Positions 7,894 through 18,814 of a stretch of 37,631 nucleotides of DNA are shown here, piece after piece. The position numbers were made by a program, and so were the translations under genes. The DNA is from Actinomycetes bacterium (lineage in GTDB: Bacteria; Actinomycetota; Thermoleophilia; Solirubrobacterales; Solirubrobacteraceae). The first letter of the stretch is position 1; the number at the start of each line of letters is the position of its first letter. The notes beneath the pieces were generated by a model. It saw nothing but the letters and a program-made list of their open reading frames with translations. It had not been told where the DNA came from and ran no database searches. Location of the stretch: positions 1 through 37,631 of the forward strand of contig JAJZWB010000020.1 of NCBI GenBank assembly GCA_021846845.1, read 5' to 3'.

Positions 7894-7911
7894 AGGCACC
7901 GATCAATATCT

Positions 7912-7948
7912 GTCACGGTACGCTTAGCCGCGTGGCTATAACCGTGAC
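7912..7948. promoter_or_regulatory. Inverted repeat spanning the LysR-type gene start
   Basis: GTCACGGT (7912-7919) and ACCGTGAC (7941-7948) are perfect inverted copies centred on the GTG start codon at 7932. A smaller nested dyad TAGCC/GGCTA lies at 7925-7938. TACGCT (7919-7924) is a likely -10 box seven bases before the GTG. The arrangement would suit autoregulation by the LysR protein, or a hairpin that hides the start in a leaderless transcript. Confidence 0.45.
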
Positions 7949-8885
7949 GCAGTTGACGGCCTTCCTGGCCGTCGTACGTGGCGGCTCCGTGACCGCCGCC
8001 GCCGACGAGCTGATCGTCACCCAGCCGTCGGTCTCCTCCGCGATCTCATCGCTGTCTCGCGAGCTCGGCTGCGAGCTGTTCGAGCGGGCGGGGCGCGGGA
8101 TCGCGCTGACCGAGGCGGGGACGGCGTTCGTTCCATATGCCGCCGATGTGCTGGGGCTGCTGGATCGGGGGCGCCGCGCGGTCGCCGAGGCCGCCGCGGT
8201 GGCGTCACGCAGGCTGCGGATCGCGGCCGTGACGACCGCCGCGGAGTCGTTCGTGCCGCAGCTGATGCGCGACTTCGCGCTCGCCAACCCGGACGTCGAG
8301 CTGACGCTCGACGTCGGCAACCGAGCCCGCGTGCTCGACAGCGTCCTGCGCCACGTCGCCGACGTCGCGATCTCGGGTCGCCCGCCCGGCGACGAGCGGC
8401 TGGTCGCGGAGCCCCTGCGCGCCAACCCGATCGTGTGCATCACCGCGCCCGACGACCCGGCCGTGCGCGGGCCGGCCCGGTCGGCCGCCGAGCTCGGCGA
8501 GCGCGCCTGGCTGCTGCGTGAGCCGGGCTCCGGCACACGCGCGCTCAACGAGCAGTTCCTGGCCCAGCGGGGCCTCTCCCCGCGGGTACTGGAGCTCGGC
8601 TCCAACGGCGCGATCAAGCAGGCTGCGCGCGCCGGGCTGGGGGTCTCGTTGATCTCGCGTGCGGCGGTCGAGGCCGAGTTGGCGAGCGCGCTGCTGGGCG
8701 AGATCGAGCTGCGCGACCCGCCTGAGACGCGGCCCTGGTACCTGCTGCGCTCCTCGGTCGGGCCCGCCCGCCCGGCCGTCTGCGAGCTGGTCGAGTATCT
8801 GCGGGCCGGTTTCGTGACCGCCGAGCGGGAGCGTCAGGGGGTAGTTGCCGTCTCGTCGACGACGCCGTTGTCGGTCGGCGGCTGA
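7932..8885 (+). CDS. LysR-family transcriptional regulator, candidate CbbR
   Basis: This encodes 317 residues. An N-terminal winged helix-turn-helix (about 5-65: LTAFLAVVRGGSVTAAADEL, TQPSVSSAISSL) is followed by a LysR substrate-binding domain (about 90-300). CbbR proteins of this family sense Calvin-cycle metabolites and activate cbb operons. It converges on a phosphoribulokinase gene and overlaps its 3' end by 52 bases; the RuBisCO operon is 7 kb away. The start at GTG 7932 follows a TACGCT box by seven bases, which suggests a leaderless message. The LysR call is firm, the CbbR role rests on neighbourhood. Confidence 0.9.
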   Translation: MAITVTQLTAFLAVVRGGSVTAAADELIVTQPSVSSAISSLSRELGCELFERAGRGIALTEAGTAFVPYAADVLGLLDRGRRAVAEAAAVASRRLRIAAVTTAAESFVPQLMRDFALANPDVELTLDVGNRARVLDSVLRHVADVAISGRPPGDERLVAEPLRANPIVCITAPDDPAVRGPARSAAELGERAWLLREPGSGTRALNEQFLAQRGLSPRVLELGSNGAIKQAARAGLGVSLISRAAVEAELASALLGEIELRDPPETRPWYLLRSSVGPARPAVCELVEYLRAGFVTAERERQGVVAVSSTTPLSVGG

Positions 8886-9799
8886 TCGGCGCGCGCGCCG
8901 CTTGCTCCCAGGGCGACCGCGGCGCGCGCGGTCACCAGCTGGTACAGGACCAGCAGCTGGATGATCGCCAGCGGCTCGGAACGGCGCAGCTCGGTGCCGA
9001 TCGTGAACTCTCCGAGCCGCTCCGTGCGCAGATGGCTGGCGAAGTGCATCCGGTCCCAGATCGCCTCCTCGAACGCCGCGCTGTGCGCCGGGTCGATCGT
9101 CCCCGGGACCCACAGCACCGTCTCGGAGCCGCGCTTGGCGAGCCTGATCCCGTCCCGGTCGGTGTCGACCAGCGGCTCCAGATCGGGATGCGCCAGCCCG
9201 GGCCGCATCAGGAGCTGAGCATCGAGGTGCTCCGGATCGCCGCGGTCGCCGGGCATGAACGAGATCACGATGTCGGCGTGGCGCCGCTGGGGCCGGATGA
9301 ACGTCTCGGCGTCGGCCTCGCGACGGTCGAGCTCGGCCAGCACCTCGTCGGTCGTGTAGCCGCGGCGGGAGCAGTCGCGCTGGACCTTCCAGCGCCGCCG
9401 CAGCTCCTCAGGCGGGTCGAGAAAGATCCGCACGTCGTAGACCGCCCGCATCTCGGCCGTGTGGAACCCGAGCATCCCCTCGACGATCGTGAACTGCGTC
9501 GGCGTGAGGTACTCGGTCGGGCCCAGGCTGCCGTCCTGATGGCGGTAGATAGGCTTGAGGATCGACCGCCCCGCCCGCAGGTGCACCAGATGCTGCTCGA
9601 GGATGTCAAGGTGGTTGCAATCGGGGTGCAGCGGCGTGATGCCCAGCTCGGTCCGCTGGGTGCGTGAGTAGCGGTGGTAGTGGTCGGCGGACACGTGCGT
9701 CACCTGCGACTCGCCCAGGATCCGCAGCAGCCCCCGGGTCAGCGTGGTCTTGCCCGCGGCCGAGTCGCCGGCGATCCCGAGCAGGATCGGCCGCGGCAT
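8834..9799 (-). CDS. prk: Phosphoribulokinase-family protein, copy 1
   Basis: This 321-residue enzyme would phosphorylate ribulose 5-phosphate with ATP to give ribulose 1,5-bisphosphate, the RuBisCO substrate. The P-loop is GDSAAGKTT (residues 11-19). D39 in SADHYHRY lines up with the catalytic Asp57 of spinach enzyme. KPIYRHQDGSLGP and the FTIVEGMLG strand are also present. It looks like the class II (plant/cyanobacterial) type. Compared with copy 2, residue 40 is H instead of D and residue 45 is S instead of D, so substrate use may differ. Its ATG shares one base with the stop of the upstream comB-like gene (TGATG). A uridine-kinase-like activity is a less likely alternative. Confidence 0.88.
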   Translation of the reverse strand: MPRPILLGIAGDSAAGKTTLTRGLLRILGESQVTHVSADHYHRYSRTQRTELGITPLHPDCNHLDILEQHLVHLRAGRSILKPIYRHQDGSLGPTEYLTPTQFTIVEGMLGFHTAEMRAVYDVRIFLDPPEELRRRWKVQRDCSRRGYTTDEVLAELDRREADAETFIRPQRRHADIVISFMPGDRGDPEHLDAQLLMRPGLAHPDLEPLVDTDRDGIRLAKRGSETVLWVPGTIDPAHSAAFEEAIWDRMHFASHLRTERLGEFTIGTELRRSEPLAIIQLLVLYQLVTARAAVALGASGARADQPPTDNGVVDETATTP

Positions 9800-10608
9800 C
9801 AGCCGGCCACCTTAGACCCGTGGCCGGTGCGGGCCGTCCGCCCGGCGCGCCCCGGCCGCGCGCCGCGCGCCGCGCGCCGCCGCCGGATCGACGCGGCGCC
9901 ATGGCCGGCGCGATCCACTACCGCGATGCCCGGCTCGACGGCGACGACCGTCGGCACGACGTCCAGCGTCGACTCGCGCGCGCACAGGGCCACGTCGCCG
10001 GCCAGCCCGGCGGCCGCCAGCGCGGTGCCGCCGCCGCCGGCCTGCAGCGCCCGCAGCGGCGTTCGGAAGGACCGGGCGACGCCCTCGGCGACCAGCGCCG
10101 ATTCGGTCCTCGTGCCGCTCAGCAGCGAGCTCAGCCGCCCGGCCACGTAGACGTCCTCGAGCGCGGTCGCTCCCTCGATCCCGGCGCAGATGATCTGCAC
10201 GTCGCCGGCGCCCTCGGATGCGAGGGCCCGCGTGATCGACGCGAGGTTGAGCAGGCTCGCGAGCAGCACCCGGGGCGCGCGTGCCGCCGCCTCGACCGTC
10301 GCCGGAGCCCCGTTGGTGGTCGCCAGGACGAGCTCCTCGCCGCGCCGCACGGCGGCCTCCGCGGGCGAGTTGCCCTGGTCGAAGCCCTCGGGACGACGGA
10401 GGCTGCGCTCGCCGGCGAGCACCCTGCCGGGAGCCCTGAGGCGCGCGGCGGTCTCGACGCCGTCCGCGCAGAGCACCCGGCGGTAGCCGGCCGAGAGCGC
10501 CTGGGCGACGGTCGAGGTGGCTCGCAGCACGTCGATCACCACCGCGACGTCGGTCTCGCGCGCCTGCGCCCGAGTCAGCGCCACATCGATCAGGCGGGTT
10601 GGATCCAT
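9799..10608 (-). CDS. comB: 2-phosphosulfolactate phosphatase family (ComB-like)
   Basis: This encodes 269 residues from the ATG at 10608; that start is favoured by a promoter just upstream. ComB is a Mg-dependent phosphatase that makes sulfolactate in coenzyme M synthesis. Family motifs are clear: VAVVIDVLRATSTVAQAL near the N-terminus, VLAGERS, FDQGNSPAE, VLATTNGAP and ICAGIEG. About 35 C-terminal residues are Arg/Ala/Gly-rich and probably disordered. ComB homologues are common in bacteria that make no coenzyme M, where the substrate is unsettled. Its stop overlaps the phosphoribulokinase start, so a role in Calvin-cycle sugar-phosphate handling deserves attention. Family call firm, substrate unknown. 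Confidence 0.88.
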   Translation of the reverse strand: MDPTRLIDVALTRAQARETDVAVVIDVLRATSTVAQALSAGYRRVLCADGVETAARLRAPGRVLAGERSLRRPEGFDQGNSPAEAAVRRGEELVLATTNGAPATVEAAARAPRVLLASLLNLASITRALASEGAGDVQIICAGIEGATALEDVYVAGRLSSLLSGTRTESALVAEGVARSFRTPLRALQAGGGGTALAAAGLAGDVALCARESTLDVVPTVVAVEPGIAVVDRAGHGAASIRRRRAARGARPGRAGRTARTGHGSKVAG

Positions 10609-10618
10609 GGGCCGCGGC

Positions 10619-10647
10619 AATGTAGTCGGCATGGGATCGCCGAGCAA
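10619..10647 (-). promoter_or_regulatory. Promoter of the comB-prk operon
   Basis: On the minus strand, TTGCTC (10647-10642) and TACATT (10624-10619) are separated by 17 bp, and the -10 ends ten bases before the ATG at 10608. Transcripts would have almost no leader. An 8-bp palindrome AAGCGCTT (10654-10661) sits just upstream of the -35 and could be an operator. Confidence 0.55.
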
Positions 10648-10679
10648 GAGAGAAAGCGCTTGTTGTCCACGATCTGTGT

Positions 10680-12083
10680 CTATCCGTTCGCCGGCGTCGG
10701 GCTCGCCGTACCGGAGAGGTTAGGGGGCGCGGGGGCCGACGAAGACCGCGCCTCCGCCTCCGCGGGCAGCGGAGGCGTCCGCGGCAGGGTGATCCAGACG
10801 TCCGCGCCGCCGCCCTCGCGGTTGGCCGCGCTCGCCGCGCCGCCGTGGGCGCGCGCGATCGCCTCGACGATCGAGAGCCCGAGCCCGGCTCCGCCGCGTC
10901 CCCTCGCCCGGTCGGCGCGGCGGAATCGCTCGAAGGCGTGCGGCAGGAACGCGGCCGGGAACCCGGCGCCGCGGTCGGCGACGTGCAGCTCCACCAGCCC
11001 GCCGCGCTCGGCGGCCGAGAGCGTCACGGTCCCGCCGCCGTGCACCAGCGCGTTGTCGATCAGGTTGTGGAGCGCCTGATCGAGCTTCGCGCGGTCGGCG
11101 GCCAATGTCGCCTCCCGCGGGCAGTCGACCACCACCTCCCTTCCCAGTGCCGCCGCTGCGGGGGCCATTCGCGCGGCCGCGTCTGCGAGCGCGTCGGCGG
11201 CGTCGATCCGCTCCAGGGAGGGATGCAGCCTGCCGGCCTGCCCGCGGGCGAGAACCAGCAGGTCGTTGGCGAGCTTGATCACGCGGTCGGTCTCCTCGAT
11301 CGCGGATCCGACGGCGCCGCGCCAGTCCTCGATCGCGCCGCCGGCGCGAAGCGCGACCTCCAGCTCGCCCTTGAGCACCGCCAGGGGGCCGCGCAGCTCG
11401 TGACTCGCGTCGGAGACGAACACCCGCTCGCGCTCGATCCCCGCATGGAGGCGGTCGAGCATCTCGTTCAGCGTGATCGCCAGCCGCTGCACCTCGTCGG
11501 CGCTGGTCGGCAGCGGCAGCCGGTCCCCGACGTCGTCGGGCGAGATCGTCGCGGCGCGGCGGCGCATCTCCTCGATCGGCCGCAGCAGCCGCCCGAACAT
11601 CACATATGCGATCGCCGAGGCGAGCAGGAGCATCGTCGGGATTCCGGCCAGCAGCTCCCAGTTGAACGTGATGAAGGCGTCCTGCTGCTGGGCCAGCGAC
11701 ACCCCCACGACCACGATCCGGTGGTCGGCGGCCGGCTGCGCGAACAGGCGCGAATCCTCGCCCCGATCGATCAGGACCGGGCGGAGGGCCGCGCGCCGCA
11801 GCTCGCCGCGGTCCAGCAGCGGCGTCCGCTCGTGGCCCTGGCTGGCGACCAGGATCGTCCCCTTGGGGCTCAGGATCTGCGCGAATCCGTCCTGCGACGG
11901 GCGCGTCGATCTGTGCGACGGGCCGGGCAGGCGGTCGGAGAAGGCGCTCAGAGCCTGCGCACGCGCGCGCAGGCCGTTGTCGATGCTCGTGTTGATGCTG
12001 CTGTGGAACTCCAGGTACAGCAGCGTCCCGAGCACGGCGAACAGGCAGCCCATCGCCAGCGCGGAGATCAGCGTCATCCGCAC
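10680..12083 (-). CDS. Membrane sensor histidine kinase, OmpR-partner type
   Basis: This encodes 467 residues from GTG 12083. A CTG at 12113, overlapping the stop of the regulator gene, would add ten residues (LKRLAQLPIR) that look like the usual N-terminus of such kinases. A membrane helix at about 5-24 and another at about 144-166 enclose an extracytoplasmic sensor region of about 120 residues. HAMP follows, then HisKA with H228 in DASHELRGPLA and HATPase_c with DNALVHGG, DRGAGFP and GRGGAGLGLS. The last 25 residues are Ala/Pro-rich. It pairs with the OmpR-type regulator directly upstream. The signal is unknown. Confidence 0.93.
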   Translation of the reverse strand: MRMTLISALAMGCLFAVLGTLLYLEFHSSINTSIDNGLRARAQALSAFSDRLPGPSHRSTRPSQDGFAQILSPKGTILVASQGHERTPLLDRGELRRAALRPVLIDRGEDSRLFAQPAADHRIVVVGVSLAQQQDAFITFNWELLAGIPTMLLLASAIAYVMFGRLLRPIEEMRRRAATISPDDVGDRLPLPTSADEVQRLAITLNEMLDRLHAGIERERVFVSDASHELRGPLAVLKGELEVALRAGGAIEDWRGAVGSAIEETDRVIKLANDLLVLARGQAGRLHPSLERIDAADALADAAARMAPAAAALGREVVVDCPREATLAADRAKLDQALHNLIDNALVHGGGTVTLSAAERGGLVELHVADRGAGFPAAFLPHAFERFRRADRARGRGGAGLGLSIVEAIARAHGGAASAANREGGGADVWITLPRTPPLPAEAEARSSSAPAPPNLSGTASPTPANG

Positions 12084-12109
12084 GCGGATCGGCAGCTGCG
12101 CAAGGCGCT

Positions 12110-12784
12110 TCAGCGCTCGGCTCGGAGCCGGTATCCGATCCCCCTGACGGTCTGGATCGAGTCGCGCCCGAAGGGGCGGTCGATCTTCTCACGCAGGTAG
12201 CGCACGTAGACCTCGAGCACGTTGGAGCGGTTCTCGTAGTCGTAGCTCCACGCCTGCTCCAGCAGTTCGAAGCGCGACACGACCCGGCCCGGACGGCGCA
12301 TCAGCGCCTCCAGCAGCGCGAACTCCTTCGGCGAGAGCTCGATCGGGACCTCCCCCCGCCATGCCCGGAGCGTCGCGCGATCGAGCCGGAGGTCGCCCAC
12401 CCGGAGCGTCACCGGCCGCTCGATCGCGCCGCGCCGCGCGACCGCGCGGACCCGAGCGACCAGCTCGTCCAGCGAGAAGGGCTTGGCGAGGTAGTCGTCG
12501 GCGCCGGCGTTCAACCCGGCCACCCGGTCCTCCACCGCGTCGCGCGCCGTGAGCATCAACACGCCGGACCAGACGTTACCCTCGCGGAGCCTGCGACAGA
12601 CGGCGAATCCGTCGGCGCCGGGGAGCATCACATCGAGCACGATCACGTCGTATGTGGTTGCCTGTGCGCGGATCACCGCCTCGTCGCCGTGGGTGACCGT
12701 GTCGACCGCCATCCCCTCCAGAGACAGCCCCCGGCGCAGCACCGCGCCCATCTTCACATCGTCATCGACCACCAGGACGCGCAC
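12110..12784 (-). CDS. OmpR/PhoB-family response regulator
   Basis: This encodes 224 residues. The receiver domain (about 1-115) has D7-D8-D9 and the phosphoacceptor D51 in VIVLDVMLPGADG, with K in DDYLAKPFSLDEL. A winged-helix effector domain (about 125-222) shows ELSPKEFALLEALMRRPGRVVS and RSNVLEVYVRYLREKID. The GTG at 12784 is preceded by a GATACT-like box nine bases upstream, which may be the promoter. It is the first gene of a two-gene operon with its kinase, divergent from the GT4 gene at 12886. The regulon is not known. Confidence 0.95.
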   Translation of the reverse strand: MRVLVVDDDVKMGAVLRRGLSLEGMAVDTVTHGDEAVIRAQATTYDVIVLDVMLPGADGFAVCRRLREGNVWSGVLMLTARDAVEDRVAGLNAGADDYLAKPFSLDELVARVRAVARRGAIERPVTLRVGDLRLDRATLRAWRGEVPIELSPKEFALLEALMRRPGRVVSRFELLEQAWSYDYENRSNVLEVYVRYLREKIDRPFGRDSIQTVRGIGYRLRAER

Positions 12785-12885
12785 GACTCATGAAGTATCC
12801 CGACCGCGACCCGCGCCGACGCCCGTTGTGAAGCTCTCGCGTCGTTCTCAGCTCCAGCTCATCTGCGGAGGCTAAAAGAGCGCCC

Positions 12886-14616
12886 GTGCTCGAGCCAAGC
12901 CCAGATCCGCTCGCCTCGGCACGGTCCGCGGCGGCAGAGGACCGCGGACCCGAGTCCGAGAGCGGCAGGCGCCTGCGGATCGCGATCGTCAGCGAGGTCT
13001 CGCTCGGCGCCATCGACGGCGTGGTGACGCGCCTGATGCGCACGCTGGAGGAGCTCGGCCGCGCCGGCGACGAGGTCCTGCTGGTCGCACCGGATGGCGG
13101 CCCCACGCAGTACGCCGGGGTCGAGATCGTCGGGATGCCGGCGGTTCGGCTGCCGCTGTACCCGGACGGTCGCGGCTACCCGCCCAAGCGGGTGTCCCTG
13201 CCGACGCGTCGCCTGGACGAGGTGCTGCGCCGCTTCCGGCCGGACGTCATCCACGCGATCAACCCGGTCCTGCTCGGTCTCAGCGCCGCGGCCGCGGCTC
13301 GCCGCCAGGGCGTACCCCTGGTCGCCTCCTACCACGCTCACCTGCCGGCCTACACGCGCTTCTATCGGATCGGCTTCATGGAGTCGGTCGGCTGGAGCTA
13401 CCTGCGCTCGGTCCACAACCGCGCGCAGCTGAACCTCTGCACCTCGATGGCGACGGGCGAGCAGCTGGTCAGCCACGGCTTCGAGCGGGTGCAGCTGTGG
13501 CCCTACGGCATCGACCTCGAGCGCTTCAACCCCGCGCGCGCCTCGGCGAGCTGGCGCCGCCGGCTCAGCGGCGGGCGCGACGGCCGGCTCGTGATGCTCT
13601 ACGTGGGGCGCCTGGCCAGGGAGAAGCGGGTCGACCGGCTCCTGGAGGCGGTCCGCACCGAGGGCGTGACGCTCGCGATCGTCGGCGACGGCCCCGAGCG
13701 GGCGCAGCTGGAGCGCACCTTTGCCGGCACCCCGACCGAGTTCCTCGGCTTCTTGACCGGCGACGACCTGGGCGCCGTCTACGCCTCCGCCGACCTGTTC
13801 CTGCTGCCGTCCGACACCGAGACCCTCGGGCTGGTGACGCTCGAGGCGCAGGCCTCGGGGCTGCCGGTGATCGCCGCCCAGAGCCCGGCGTCGCGCGAGC
13901 TGGTCGCCGATCGCCAGGCCGGGCTGCTGTTCGACCCGGCCCGCCCGGGGAGCCTCGCCGCCGCCGTGCGCGAGGTGGTGGTCGACCCCGACCGCCGGGC
14001 CGCGTTCGCGGAGCGCGCGCTGCGCGCCAGCCAGGGCCGCACCTGGCGGGCGGCCACCGGCGTGCTGCGCCGCTACTACCTGGAGTGCGTGCTCGCGTCG
14101 CCGCCGCGCGATCCCGGCGCTTCGCGCGGCGAGGCCAGGCCGCAGGGCGCCGGCGCGGAGCAGTCCCCTGTTCAGGACCCGGCGCAGCCTCCCGTCTCGA
14201 CGCCGCTGCGGATCGCGATCGCGGGCACCGTCGCGCTGCTGATCACGGCGTGGCTCATGTCACGGCTGCGCGCGGTGGAGGGCACCGGCGGGCTCTGGCT
14301 GCTCAACCTCGTCCTGTCGGTGCCGATCGCGACCGTCGCCGTCTGCTGCGCAGCCCTCGGCGGAGCGGCGCTGCTGGCCCGGCGGCCGCGGCCTGACGGC
14401 GCTCCGCGGAGGCTTCGGGGGCTGGCGGGGGGGCTCGTGCTGGCGGGGGTCGTGGCGATCGTCCCGCCGCTGGCCGGTCATGCGATCGGCGTCAACGGCT
14501 GGCTGCGGGTCGTCGCGGGCGGCCTGCTGATCCTCTGCTCGGCCGCGAGCCTGCGGAGCCGCAGGCTCGCCGTCGGGGCCATCGGAGACCGGGCCGCTGA
14601 GCGCCTCCACGGCTGA
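12886..14616 (+). CDS. GT4 glycosyltransferase with C-terminal membrane domain
   Basis: This encodes 576 residues from GTG 12886. Residues about 25-400 form a GT-B enzyme of the GT4 family (PimB/mannosyltransferase-like). It has the N-terminal acceptor domain (RIAIVSEVSLGAIDGVVTRL), the donor domain starting at VMLYVGRLAREKRVDRLL, and the E-x7-E region in PSDTETLGLVTLEAQASGLPV. After a Pro/Gly linker, about 140 C-terminal residues contain roughly four hydrophobic helices, which are not part of the usual GT4 length (about 380). The tail probably anchors the enzyme to the membrane. It is followed by a membrane protein of the LPG-synthase type, a common partner of GT4 lipid mannosyltransferases. 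The donor is unknown. Confidence 0.9.
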   Translation: MLEPSPDPLASARSAAAEDRGPESESGRRLRIAIVSEVSLGAIDGVVTRLMRTLEELGRAGDEVLLVAPDGGPTQYAGVEIVGMPAVRLPLYPDGRGYPPKRVSLPTRRLDEVLRRFRPDVIHAINPVLLGLSAAAAARRQGVPLVASYHAHLPAYTRFYRIGFMESVGWSYLRSVHNRAQLNLCTSMATGEQLVSHGFERVQLWPYGIDLERFNPARASASWRRRLSGGRDGRLVMLYVGRLAREKRVDRLLEAVRTEGVTLAIVGDGPERAQLERTFAGTPTEFLGFLTGDDLGAVYASADLFLLPSDTETLGLVTLEAQASGLPVIAAQSPASRELVADRQAGLLFDPARPGSLAAAVREVVVDPDRRAAFAERALRASQGRTWRAATGVLRRYYLECVLASPPRDPGASRGEARPQGAGAEQSPVQDPAQPPVSTPLRIAIAGTVALLITAWLMSRLRAVEGTGGLWLLNLVLSVPIATVAVCCAALGGAALLARRPRPDGAPRRLRGLAGGLVLAGVVAIVPPLAGHAIGVNGWLRVVAGGLLILCSAASLRSRRLAVGAIGDRAAERLHG

Positions 14617-15622: not shown

Positions 15623-17203
<1,581 letters not shown>

Positions 17204-17214
17204 GCGGGCGCGCG

Positions 17215-17649
17215 ATGCGGCTGACGCAGGGCACCTTCTCGTTCCTTCCCGAGCTCACCGACGAGCAGATCTCCGCCCAGGTCAGCTACGCGCTGGGCCA
17301 CGGCTGGGCGATCTCGATCGAGTGCACCGACGACCCCGATCCGCGCAACTTCTACTGGGAGATGTGGGGCAGGCCGATGTTCGACCTGGAGGTGGAGCGC
17401 TGCGACGTGGTCCTGCGCGAGGTCCGCGCCTGCCGCGAGGCGCGCCCGGACCATTACGTCAAGCTGGTCGCATACGACGCGAGCCGCGGGCGCCAGACGA
17501 CCGCGCTGAGCTTCATCGTCGGCCGGCCCGCCGATGAAGCCGCCTTCCTCGCCGACCGCGGCGCCGATCGCCGGCCGACGCGCCACCGTCCGCGGCCCGG
17601 GGCCGTCGACGGCATCGGGGGCGCGCCGAGGTCCGCGAGGAGCCCGTGA
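17215..17649 (+). CDS. cbbS: RuBisCO small subunit, red-type, with unusual C-terminus
   Basis: This encodes 144 residues. Residues 1-112 follow red-type small subunits closely: [47 protein letters not shown] and [20 protein letters not shown]. In IC/ID proteins a beta-hairpin with an IRYT-like strand follows and lines the central pore of the hexadecamer. Here residues 113-144 are instead Arg/Pro/Gly-rich ([11 protein letters not shown]) without that pattern, and no other frame restores it. The gene starts 11 bases after cbbL, and its stop overlaps the GTG of the next ORF (GTGA), so the operon is tightly coupled. Confidence 0.95.
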
Positions 17650-17873
17650 GCCTCGCCGGGTACCGTGAAGGGATGGCCGAGCTCTTCGCGCCGCGCCCGC
17701 GAATGTCCTCGTGGATGGCGCATCACGTCTGTCTGACGGACCGCAGCCGGGACGAGCTGCTCGCGGTCGCGCGCGGGATGGTCGAGGCGGCGTCCTGCCG
17801 GCCGGCCGCCGAGGCCGGGCAGGCGCGGCCCCGGGGCCTTGAGTGGATCGACCTGGCGGAGCCCGTCTCGTGA
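17646..17873 (+). CDS. Small unknown ORF between cbbS and prk
   Basis: This frame of 75 residues starts at GTG 17646, inside the cbbS stop (GTGA), and ends in a TGA that shares its last base with the phosphoribulokinase ATG (TGATG). An internal ATG at 17673 would give 66 residues. I recognise no family. It has a short aromatic/Met-rich N-terminus ([15 protein letters not shown]), a predicted helix ([17 protein letters not shown]), a Pro/Ala/Arg linker and an acidic-hydrophobic end ([11 protein letters not shown]). Two Cys and two adjacent His are present. Overlaps on both sides argue that it is translated. A role in RuBisCO assembly, in coupling to the kinase or in regulation is only a guess. 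Confidence 0.65.
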
Positions 17874-18814
17874 TGCCCCGCCCGGTGATCCTCGGCATCG
17901 TGGGCGACTCGGCCAGCGGCAAGACGACCATCAGCCGCGGCCTGGTCCGCGTGCTGGGCGAGGAGAGCATCGCCCACATCTGCACCGACGACTACCACCG
18001 CTACGACCGGGCGCAGCGCGCGGACCTTCAGCTGACCCCGCTGAACCCCGGCTGCAACCACCTTGACATCATCGCCCAGCACCTCCAGCACCTGCGCCGC
18101 GGCGAGCCGATCCTGAAGCCCGTCTACCGACATCAGGACGGCACCTTCGGACCGGCCGAGTATGTCCGCCCGGGGCGCTTCACGATCATCGAGGGTCTGC
18201 TCGGCTACCACCTGCCCGAGATGCGCGAGGTCTACGACGTGCGGATCTTCCTGGACCCGCCGGAGGACGTGCGCCGCCGCTGGAAGGTCCAGCGCGACTG
18301 CTCGCGGCGCGGCTACACGACCGACGACGTGCTCGCGGAGCTTGACCGGCGCGAGGCCGACTCCGAGCAGTTCATCCGCCCTCAGCGGCACTACGCGGAC
18401 ATGACGATCTCGTTCCTTTCGCCCGGCGGCGGTGACGACGGCACGTACCTCGACGCCGAGCTGATCCTCGGGGACGGGCTGCCGCACCCTGACCTGACGC
18501 CGTTCGTCGGCGACCGCCCGGACGGCCTGACCCTGCGCGAGCGCGACGGCGAGCGGGTGCTGAGGATCCCGGGCCGGATCGACCCGGAGCTTGCCTCGGC
18601 GATCGAGGAGGCGATCTGGTCCCGGATGCACTTCGCCACGCACCTGCGCGCGCGGCGCCTGGGCGAGTTCACCGTCGCCACCGATCTGCGCCGTTCGGAG
18701 GCGCTTGCGCTCGTGCAGCTGCTGGTGCTCTACCACCTGGTCACCGCGCGCGCGATGGTCGCGCTCGGCGGCGACCGGGCCCGGGTGGACACGGACGCCG
18801 CCGCCGCCGTCTAG
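17873..18814 (+). CDS. prk: Phosphoribulokinase, copy 2
   Basis: This 313-residue enzyme makes ribulose 1,5-bisphosphate for the RuBisCO encoded just upstream. The P-loop is GDSASGKTT (residues 11-19). ICTDDYHRYDR (36-46) carries D39-D40, where D39 matches spinach Asp57, and C37 matches spinach Cys55; the partner Cys16 is Ser here, so the plant thioredoxin switch is absent. KPVYRHQDGTFGP, FTIIEGLLG and WKVQRDCSRRGYT also agree with class II enzymes. Red-type RuBisCO in proteobacteria usually travels with class I kinases, so the pairing is worth noting. It starts on the last base of the preceding ORF stop. It is the more canonical of the two copies. Confidence 0.93.
   Translation: MPRPVILGIVGDSASGKTTISRGLVRVLGEESIAHICTDDYHRYDRAQRADLQLTPLNPGCNHLDIIAQHLQHLRRGEPILKPVYRHQDGTFGPAEYVRPGRFTIIEGLLGYHLPEMREVYDVRIFLDPPEDVRRRWKVQRDCSRRGYTTDDVLAELDRREADSEQFIRPQRHYADMTISFLSPGGGDDGTYLDAELILGDGLPHPDLTPFVGDRPDGLTLRERDGERVLRIPGRIDPELASAIEEAIWSRMHFATHLRARRLGEFTVATDLRRSEALALVQLLVLYHLVTARAMVALGGDRARVDTDAAAAV

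Follow-up and report, generated by a model that had tools for sequence, protein, structure and literature searches.

The window analysed here, an entire contig of 37,631 bases (C55) from a 3.68 Mb Solirubrobacterales genome (assembly about 95% complete) whose closest named relatives are Solirubrobacteraceae, carries a comB-like gene that runs directly into a phosphoribulokinase gene, prk1. We find it very probable that this comB has some role linked to the Calvin cycle, a role that is well supported because the Calvin (cbb) operons of ten other genomes include comB and a tkt/prk/cbbR cluster holds a ComB of a second lineage. We propose that a ComB-fold phosphatase, presumably Mg2+-dependent, would act as a Rubisco accessory in the Calvin-Benson-Bassham (CBB) operon of Solirubrobacterales, where its most likely reaction would be the conversion of 2-phosphoglycolate, the toxic product of the Rubisco oxygenase reaction, to glycolate, which could then pass to a GlcDE-like oxidase. 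The analysis shows the family, the fold (as a predicted model), the conserved operon, the distinct ComB type and its separation from ComA. The substrate, the direction of the reaction and the physiological role are what we infer, and we put the chances that 2-phosphoglycolate is the main substrate of the operon ComBs at about even. The pair in the window is laid out as follows.

9799-10608, minus strand: comB-like gene, 269 aa; PF04029 E 4.3e-51, 173.7 bits against a cut-off of 26.4
8834-9799, minus strand: prk1, phosphoribulokinase, 321 aa; NF005655 325.8 bits, cut-off 236
9797-9801, minus strand: TGATG stop/start overlap, with Shine-Dalgarno (SD)-like AAGGTGG upstream

comB in Calvin gene clusters of Thermoleophilia

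An earlier note on this DNA had taken the comB-prk pairing as a sign of a Calvin-cycle role and had called for a survey of comB neighbourhoods, which we ran across 299 genomes of the class. By tally, comB (PF04029) occurs in 108 of these, of which 107 were used (the genome omitted from the co-occurrence test matches weakly and in part), and prk in 36; the two occur together in 30 of the 299 genomes (Fisher p 6e-10, kinship ignored). Within the order to which the source genome belongs, each of the 11 genomes whose ComB match is strong (E < 1e-50) has prk, and four further genomes carry only divergent ComBs and are all without prk.

The gene order glpX/fba - comB - rbcL - rbcS - cbbX - prk is shared by ten related genomes from three families (G226, G124, G232, G178, G077, G107, G011, G087, G296 and G106; loci L066-L074 and L078, with ComB identities of 43-64%), and cbbR is convergent with prk in most of the loci that hold the ComB operon. 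Pfam and NCBIfam models identified the neighbours as class II fructose-bisphosphatase (glpX), class I or II fructose-bisphosphate aldolase, CbbX, transketolase and ribulose-phosphate epimerase. In another genome, G266, comB lies at the end of a contig together with fba and glpX. Querying with a ComB alignment located the operon in named records as well (L146-L149, L146 being YX3bin26), among them that of the type strain Solirubrobacter soli DSM 22325, which provides a cultured source organism for an operon ComB and for which a CBB cycle is reportedly predicted from the genome (PMC6741124); the window ComB alone gave no match when used as a query against the genome contigs, whereas the alignment did. 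Membership of comB in the cbb operon, in adjacency to rbcL/prk, is thus conserved in ten divergent genomes and in named records, and we estimate the probability of this placement arising by chance at ~7e-22, relatedness ignored. The lack of a conserved neighbourhood, which the earlier note had named as grounds for refutation, is not what the genomes show, and the Calvin-cycle part of its proposal stands, but its choice of partner does not: direct comB-prk contact is found only in the window genome, relatives having rbcL-rbcS-cbbX in between, and we rejected prk as the specific partner of comB because this contact is not conserved, rbcL being the better operon neighbour.

A second ComB clade, of four rows with support 100/100, includes three that adjoin tkt in tkt/fba/rpe/prk/cbbR clusters, and further tkt-type comB loci were read at L151 and L152. 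Given this separate tkt-linked clade, comB was probably recruited into Calvin gene clusters at least twice. Genome G211 holds two comB genes, one of the tkt-type clade (L094) and one beside ppdK, the gene for pyruvate phosphate dikinase (PPDK; L095). At L075, L076, L077 and L152 we also observed the cluster arranged as fba-tkt-comB / cbbR-rpe-prk, with a GTP cyclohydrolase gene close by in some.

Sequence and predicted fold of the operon ComBs

The ComBs of the cbb operons are of a type of their own. A tree of 59 ComB sequences sets the 12 operon ComBs, together with one additional row that we infer to be the Thermotoga outgroup, apart from the remaining ComBs of the class by a branch with support 97/93; a clade of just these 12 has weak support (57/29). 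The window ComB groups with six others at 97/81 and has a long branch of its own (0.84). The type is also visible behind the TTNG loop, which is followed by A, S or T and then P in 11 of the 12 operon ComBs, whereas the other ComBs have T in 50 of 51 cases, followed by R in 47 and by K or Q in three; the SxRN stretch that is common among these others is gone in the operon ComBs.

Residues that are invariant across the whole family are kept in the window ComB (D26, R29, E67, S81, T97-G100, D152 and D205), which among the columns conserved at 95% deviates only at A124S and D169E. Its AlphaFold model (pLDDT 91.4) gave Foldseek matches to 2z0j, 2yyv and 1vr0 (E 1e-24 to 1e-19), and at E <= 0.001 all matching chains belong to the ComB family; Pfam gives PF04029 alone, with no HAD profile match in this protein. 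In the model, Pro102 lies in the first turn of the helix behind the TTNG loop, a position that may contact the substrate.

The comB-prk1 pair and other Calvin genes in the window

The comB/prk1 junction reads ...AAGGTGGCCGGCTGATGCC, with the base A common to TGA and ATG, and so bears out the earlier observation that stop and start share one base. Together with the SD-like AAGGTGG, which stands 8 nt ahead of the prk1 ATG, this junction makes translational coupling of the two genes plausible. Third-position GC is 93% in both open reading frames (ORFs). The closest relative of prk1 is its sister, the prk of the same-genus genome G210 (73% identity), a genome in which the profile search found no comB match. 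A single promoter had been proposed for the pair at 10619-10647, and this was not borne out, a scan of 7900-12900 giving no sigma-70-like site. Immediately upstream is a two-component system (OmpR-type regulator and histidine kinase, 10680-12784, minus strand), and since its histidine kinase gene is on the same strand and ends 71 bp upstream of comB, read-through into comB is possible. No such regulator/kinase pair turned up next to comB in relatives, as far as the neighbours there were identified.

The window holds the following further Calvin genes.

7932-8885, plus strand: cbbR-like LysR regulator gene, converging on prk1, with 52 bp of overlap at the 3' end of prk1
15710-17203, plus strand: rbcL, form I Rubisco large subunit; NF003252 750.7 bits, cut-off 438
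17215-17649, plus strand: rbcS, Rubisco small subunit; PF00101 4e-33
17646-17855, plus strand: relic of cbbX (Rubisco activase), 60-67 residues, C-terminal part only
17843-18814, plus strand: prk2, second phosphoribulokinase, behind rbcLS; NF005655 330.8 bits

The cbbR-like protein scores 207 bits with the CbbR model NF045990, which is under the strict cut-off, yet this is the best of 53 models. The cbbX relic, between rbcS and prk2, has 47% identity to the cbbX of G210, and no cbbX match was found elsewhere in the roughly 95% complete assembly, so the Rubisco of this genome may be without its activase. With cbbX reduced to a relic, the Calvin system of the window genome may be in decay or rearranged.

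Candidate substrates and known phosphatases

Our best guess is 2-phosphoglycolate because it is both a 2-hydroxycarboxylate phosphate, the class of compound that ComB hydrolyses, and the product of oxygenation by Rubisco. The other functions that the earlier note offered, on sugar bisphosphates and in balancing the kinase, do not share this fit. The source genome encodes a GlcD-like protein (480 bits, below the strict cut-off), with a second GlcD/E-like match adjacent. No protein in 24 prk genomes of the class reaches the cut-off of TIGR01449 (PGP_bact), the model for a phosphoglycolate phosphatase (PGP) of CbbZ grade, but this absence is only permissive, since a strict model of this kind leaves out weaker HAD matches, of which there are many. 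A published survey lists 416 CBB-positive genomes without an annotated phosphoglycolate phosphatase (PMC7895386).

Several observations weigh against a role of comB in removing 2-phosphoglycolate for Rubisco. Only some members of one class show the association of comB with the operon; in the other prk-bearing Thermoleophilia comB lies away from Calvin genes, and in the loci read from other phyla there was no case of rbcL near comB. One operon ComB (L066) retains the Arg after TTNG, and the source genome itself encodes ComA. The proteins behind the weaker HAD matches could hydrolyse 2-phosphoglycolate, and matches at E <= 1e-12 occur in all of the prk genomes searched except the source genome. 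Complementarity between comB and HAD-type PGP scores, though suggestive overall (p 0.002), was rejected as an argument, being confounded by phylogeny (p 0.11 within the order). Another candidate substitute for cbbZ, a HAD match close to the G003 cbb locus, was set aside; it lies in a separate aldolase/sugar-kinase-like cluster, as judged by eye from the translations.

Another way to view comB in these operons is as a CbbY- or CA1Pase-like phosphatase that removes Rubisco-inhibitory phosphates, namely xylulose 1,5-bisphosphate and the 2-carboxyarabinitol phosphates. The position of comB in relatives, adjoining rbcL and near the activase gene cbbX, is consistent with this, and CbbY is not among the identified operon genes. 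However, these compounds are bigger molecules, phosphorylated on primary carbons, and the window genome keeps comB though its cbbX is only a relic, so we regard this reading as unlikely.

Outside the Calvin clusters, the contexts of comB point to pyruvate phosphate dikinase: ppdK lies within 2.5 kb in 33 of 76 class ComB loci (a set in which some loci are short or come from a genome already represented), and comB and ppdK overlap by 4 bp in L086 and L108. On this basis ComB might be a general repair phosphatase that acts on 2-phospho-hydroxyacids, 2-phosphoglycolate and 2-phospholactate among them, and is encoded close to the enzymes from which these by-products arise, PPDK across most of the class and Rubisco here. 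This would be compatible with 2-phosphoglycolate as a substrate. However, the formation of by-products by PPDK is itself presumed, and the operon ComBs depart from the ppdK-linked ones at otherwise conserved positions, as would be expected if their role had changed and narrowed; taken alone, we consider the general repair reading doubtful. Direct comB-ppdK neighbours were also seen, in other families of the class, in L092, L118, L125 and others, with a gene for a PPDK regulatory protein near some.

Decay of the local Calvin system would offer a different account, in which comB-prk1 in the window genome is an operon remnant without important function. The cbbX relic of 60-67 residues, the separate cluster of rbcLS with prk2 and the branch length of the window ComB would all fit such a remnant; all strictly invariant residues are kept, however, only two of the 95% columns deviate, and the comB and prk1 ORFs are intact with high third-position GC, which makes this account improbable.

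The earlier note had not expected coenzyme M (CoM) synthesis in this organism. As regards the genome this needs correcting, for a strong ComA is encoded (PF02679, E 1.4e-87); as regards comB itself, a CoM role is still unlikely. The ComA gene is on another contig than comB and is followed after 91 bp by a histidine phosphatase gene (L145 8409-9818), a pairing also present in 7 of 12 other ComA loci read (L133-L138 and L141). There are 72 genomes with ComA but no ComB, and five genomes with an operon ComB (G124, G226, G232, G266 and G296) gave no ComA match, and no match to sulfopyruvate decarboxylase over the cut-off was found in the source genome. Because ComA is unlinked and is absent from these five genomes, and no sulfopyruvate decarboxylase match reaches the cut-off, a CoM or sulfolactate role for the window comB is unlikely, though less firmly so for this genome taken alone. 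The window ComB also stays below the 2-phosphosulfolactate phosphatase equivalog models (at best 128.1 bits against a cut-off of 332; TIGR00298, 86.9 against 175). In L121 (7399-8933) and L122 (6628-8171), comA adjoins a very divergent ComB with an STSG motif, probably a genuine sulfolactate/CoM pair in the same bacterial family. As a side observation, the histidine phosphatase that follows ComA, the phosphosulfolactate synthase, is a possible alternative phosphatase for the ComA product. Despite its Pfam/NCBIfam name and the ComA in the genome, that the window protein is an ordinary ComB (a 2-phosphosulfolactate phosphatase of sulfolactate or CoM synthesis) lying beside Calvin genes by accident is very improbable, given the unlinked ComA and the very distant type of the comA-adjacent ComBs.

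Returning to 2-phosphoglycolate, a wider formulation is that operon ComBs are a new class of non-HAD phosphoglycolate phosphatases, which took the place of CbbZ in an actinobacterial lineage of Calvin cycles, and that the bacterial ComB family as a whole serves in the clean-up of 2-phospho-hydroxyacids, with hydrolysis of phosphosulfolactate as one branch; we hold this tentatively, at somewhat less than even chances. The name of PF04029 is that of a coenzyme M enzyme, and it looks wrong in the Solirubrobacterales operons. We found nothing in the open-access literature linking the phosphosulfolactate phosphatase family with Rubisco, PRK, the Calvin cycle or phosphoglycolate; GeCoViz places comB near petRP in cyanobacteria, a different context (PMC9252766).

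The ComB of Clostridium acetobutylicum (PDB 1vr0) belongs to the same family as the window ComB and has the same fold (TM 0.87 by target length, 26% identity), and the two share D26, R29, E67, TTNG and D152. The window ComB differs from it in lying in a cbb operon without ComA and in having Pro for Arg after TTNGT, and, unlike true ComBs, it falls below all NCBIfam equivalog cut-offs for 2-phosphosulfolactate phosphatase. The closest solved structures are those of uncharacterised homologues, TTHA1438 (2z0j, 36% identity) and the T. maritima protein 2yyv (~30%), which carry Lys or Gln at the position of the operon ComBs' Pro and have no known Calvin link. In reaction and placement the nearest counterpart would be CbbZ/Gph, a HAD phosphatase found in the Rhodobacter cbbI operon and serving the same task in proteobacterial operons (PMC6278635). 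The operon ComBs would share with it the proposed reaction and the position in a cbb operon, but the two are unrelated in fold and family, so that ComB would be a non-orthologous replacement and, if this holds true, a Calvin-linked ComB would add a further, unrelated fold to those that carry out the first photorespiratory step.
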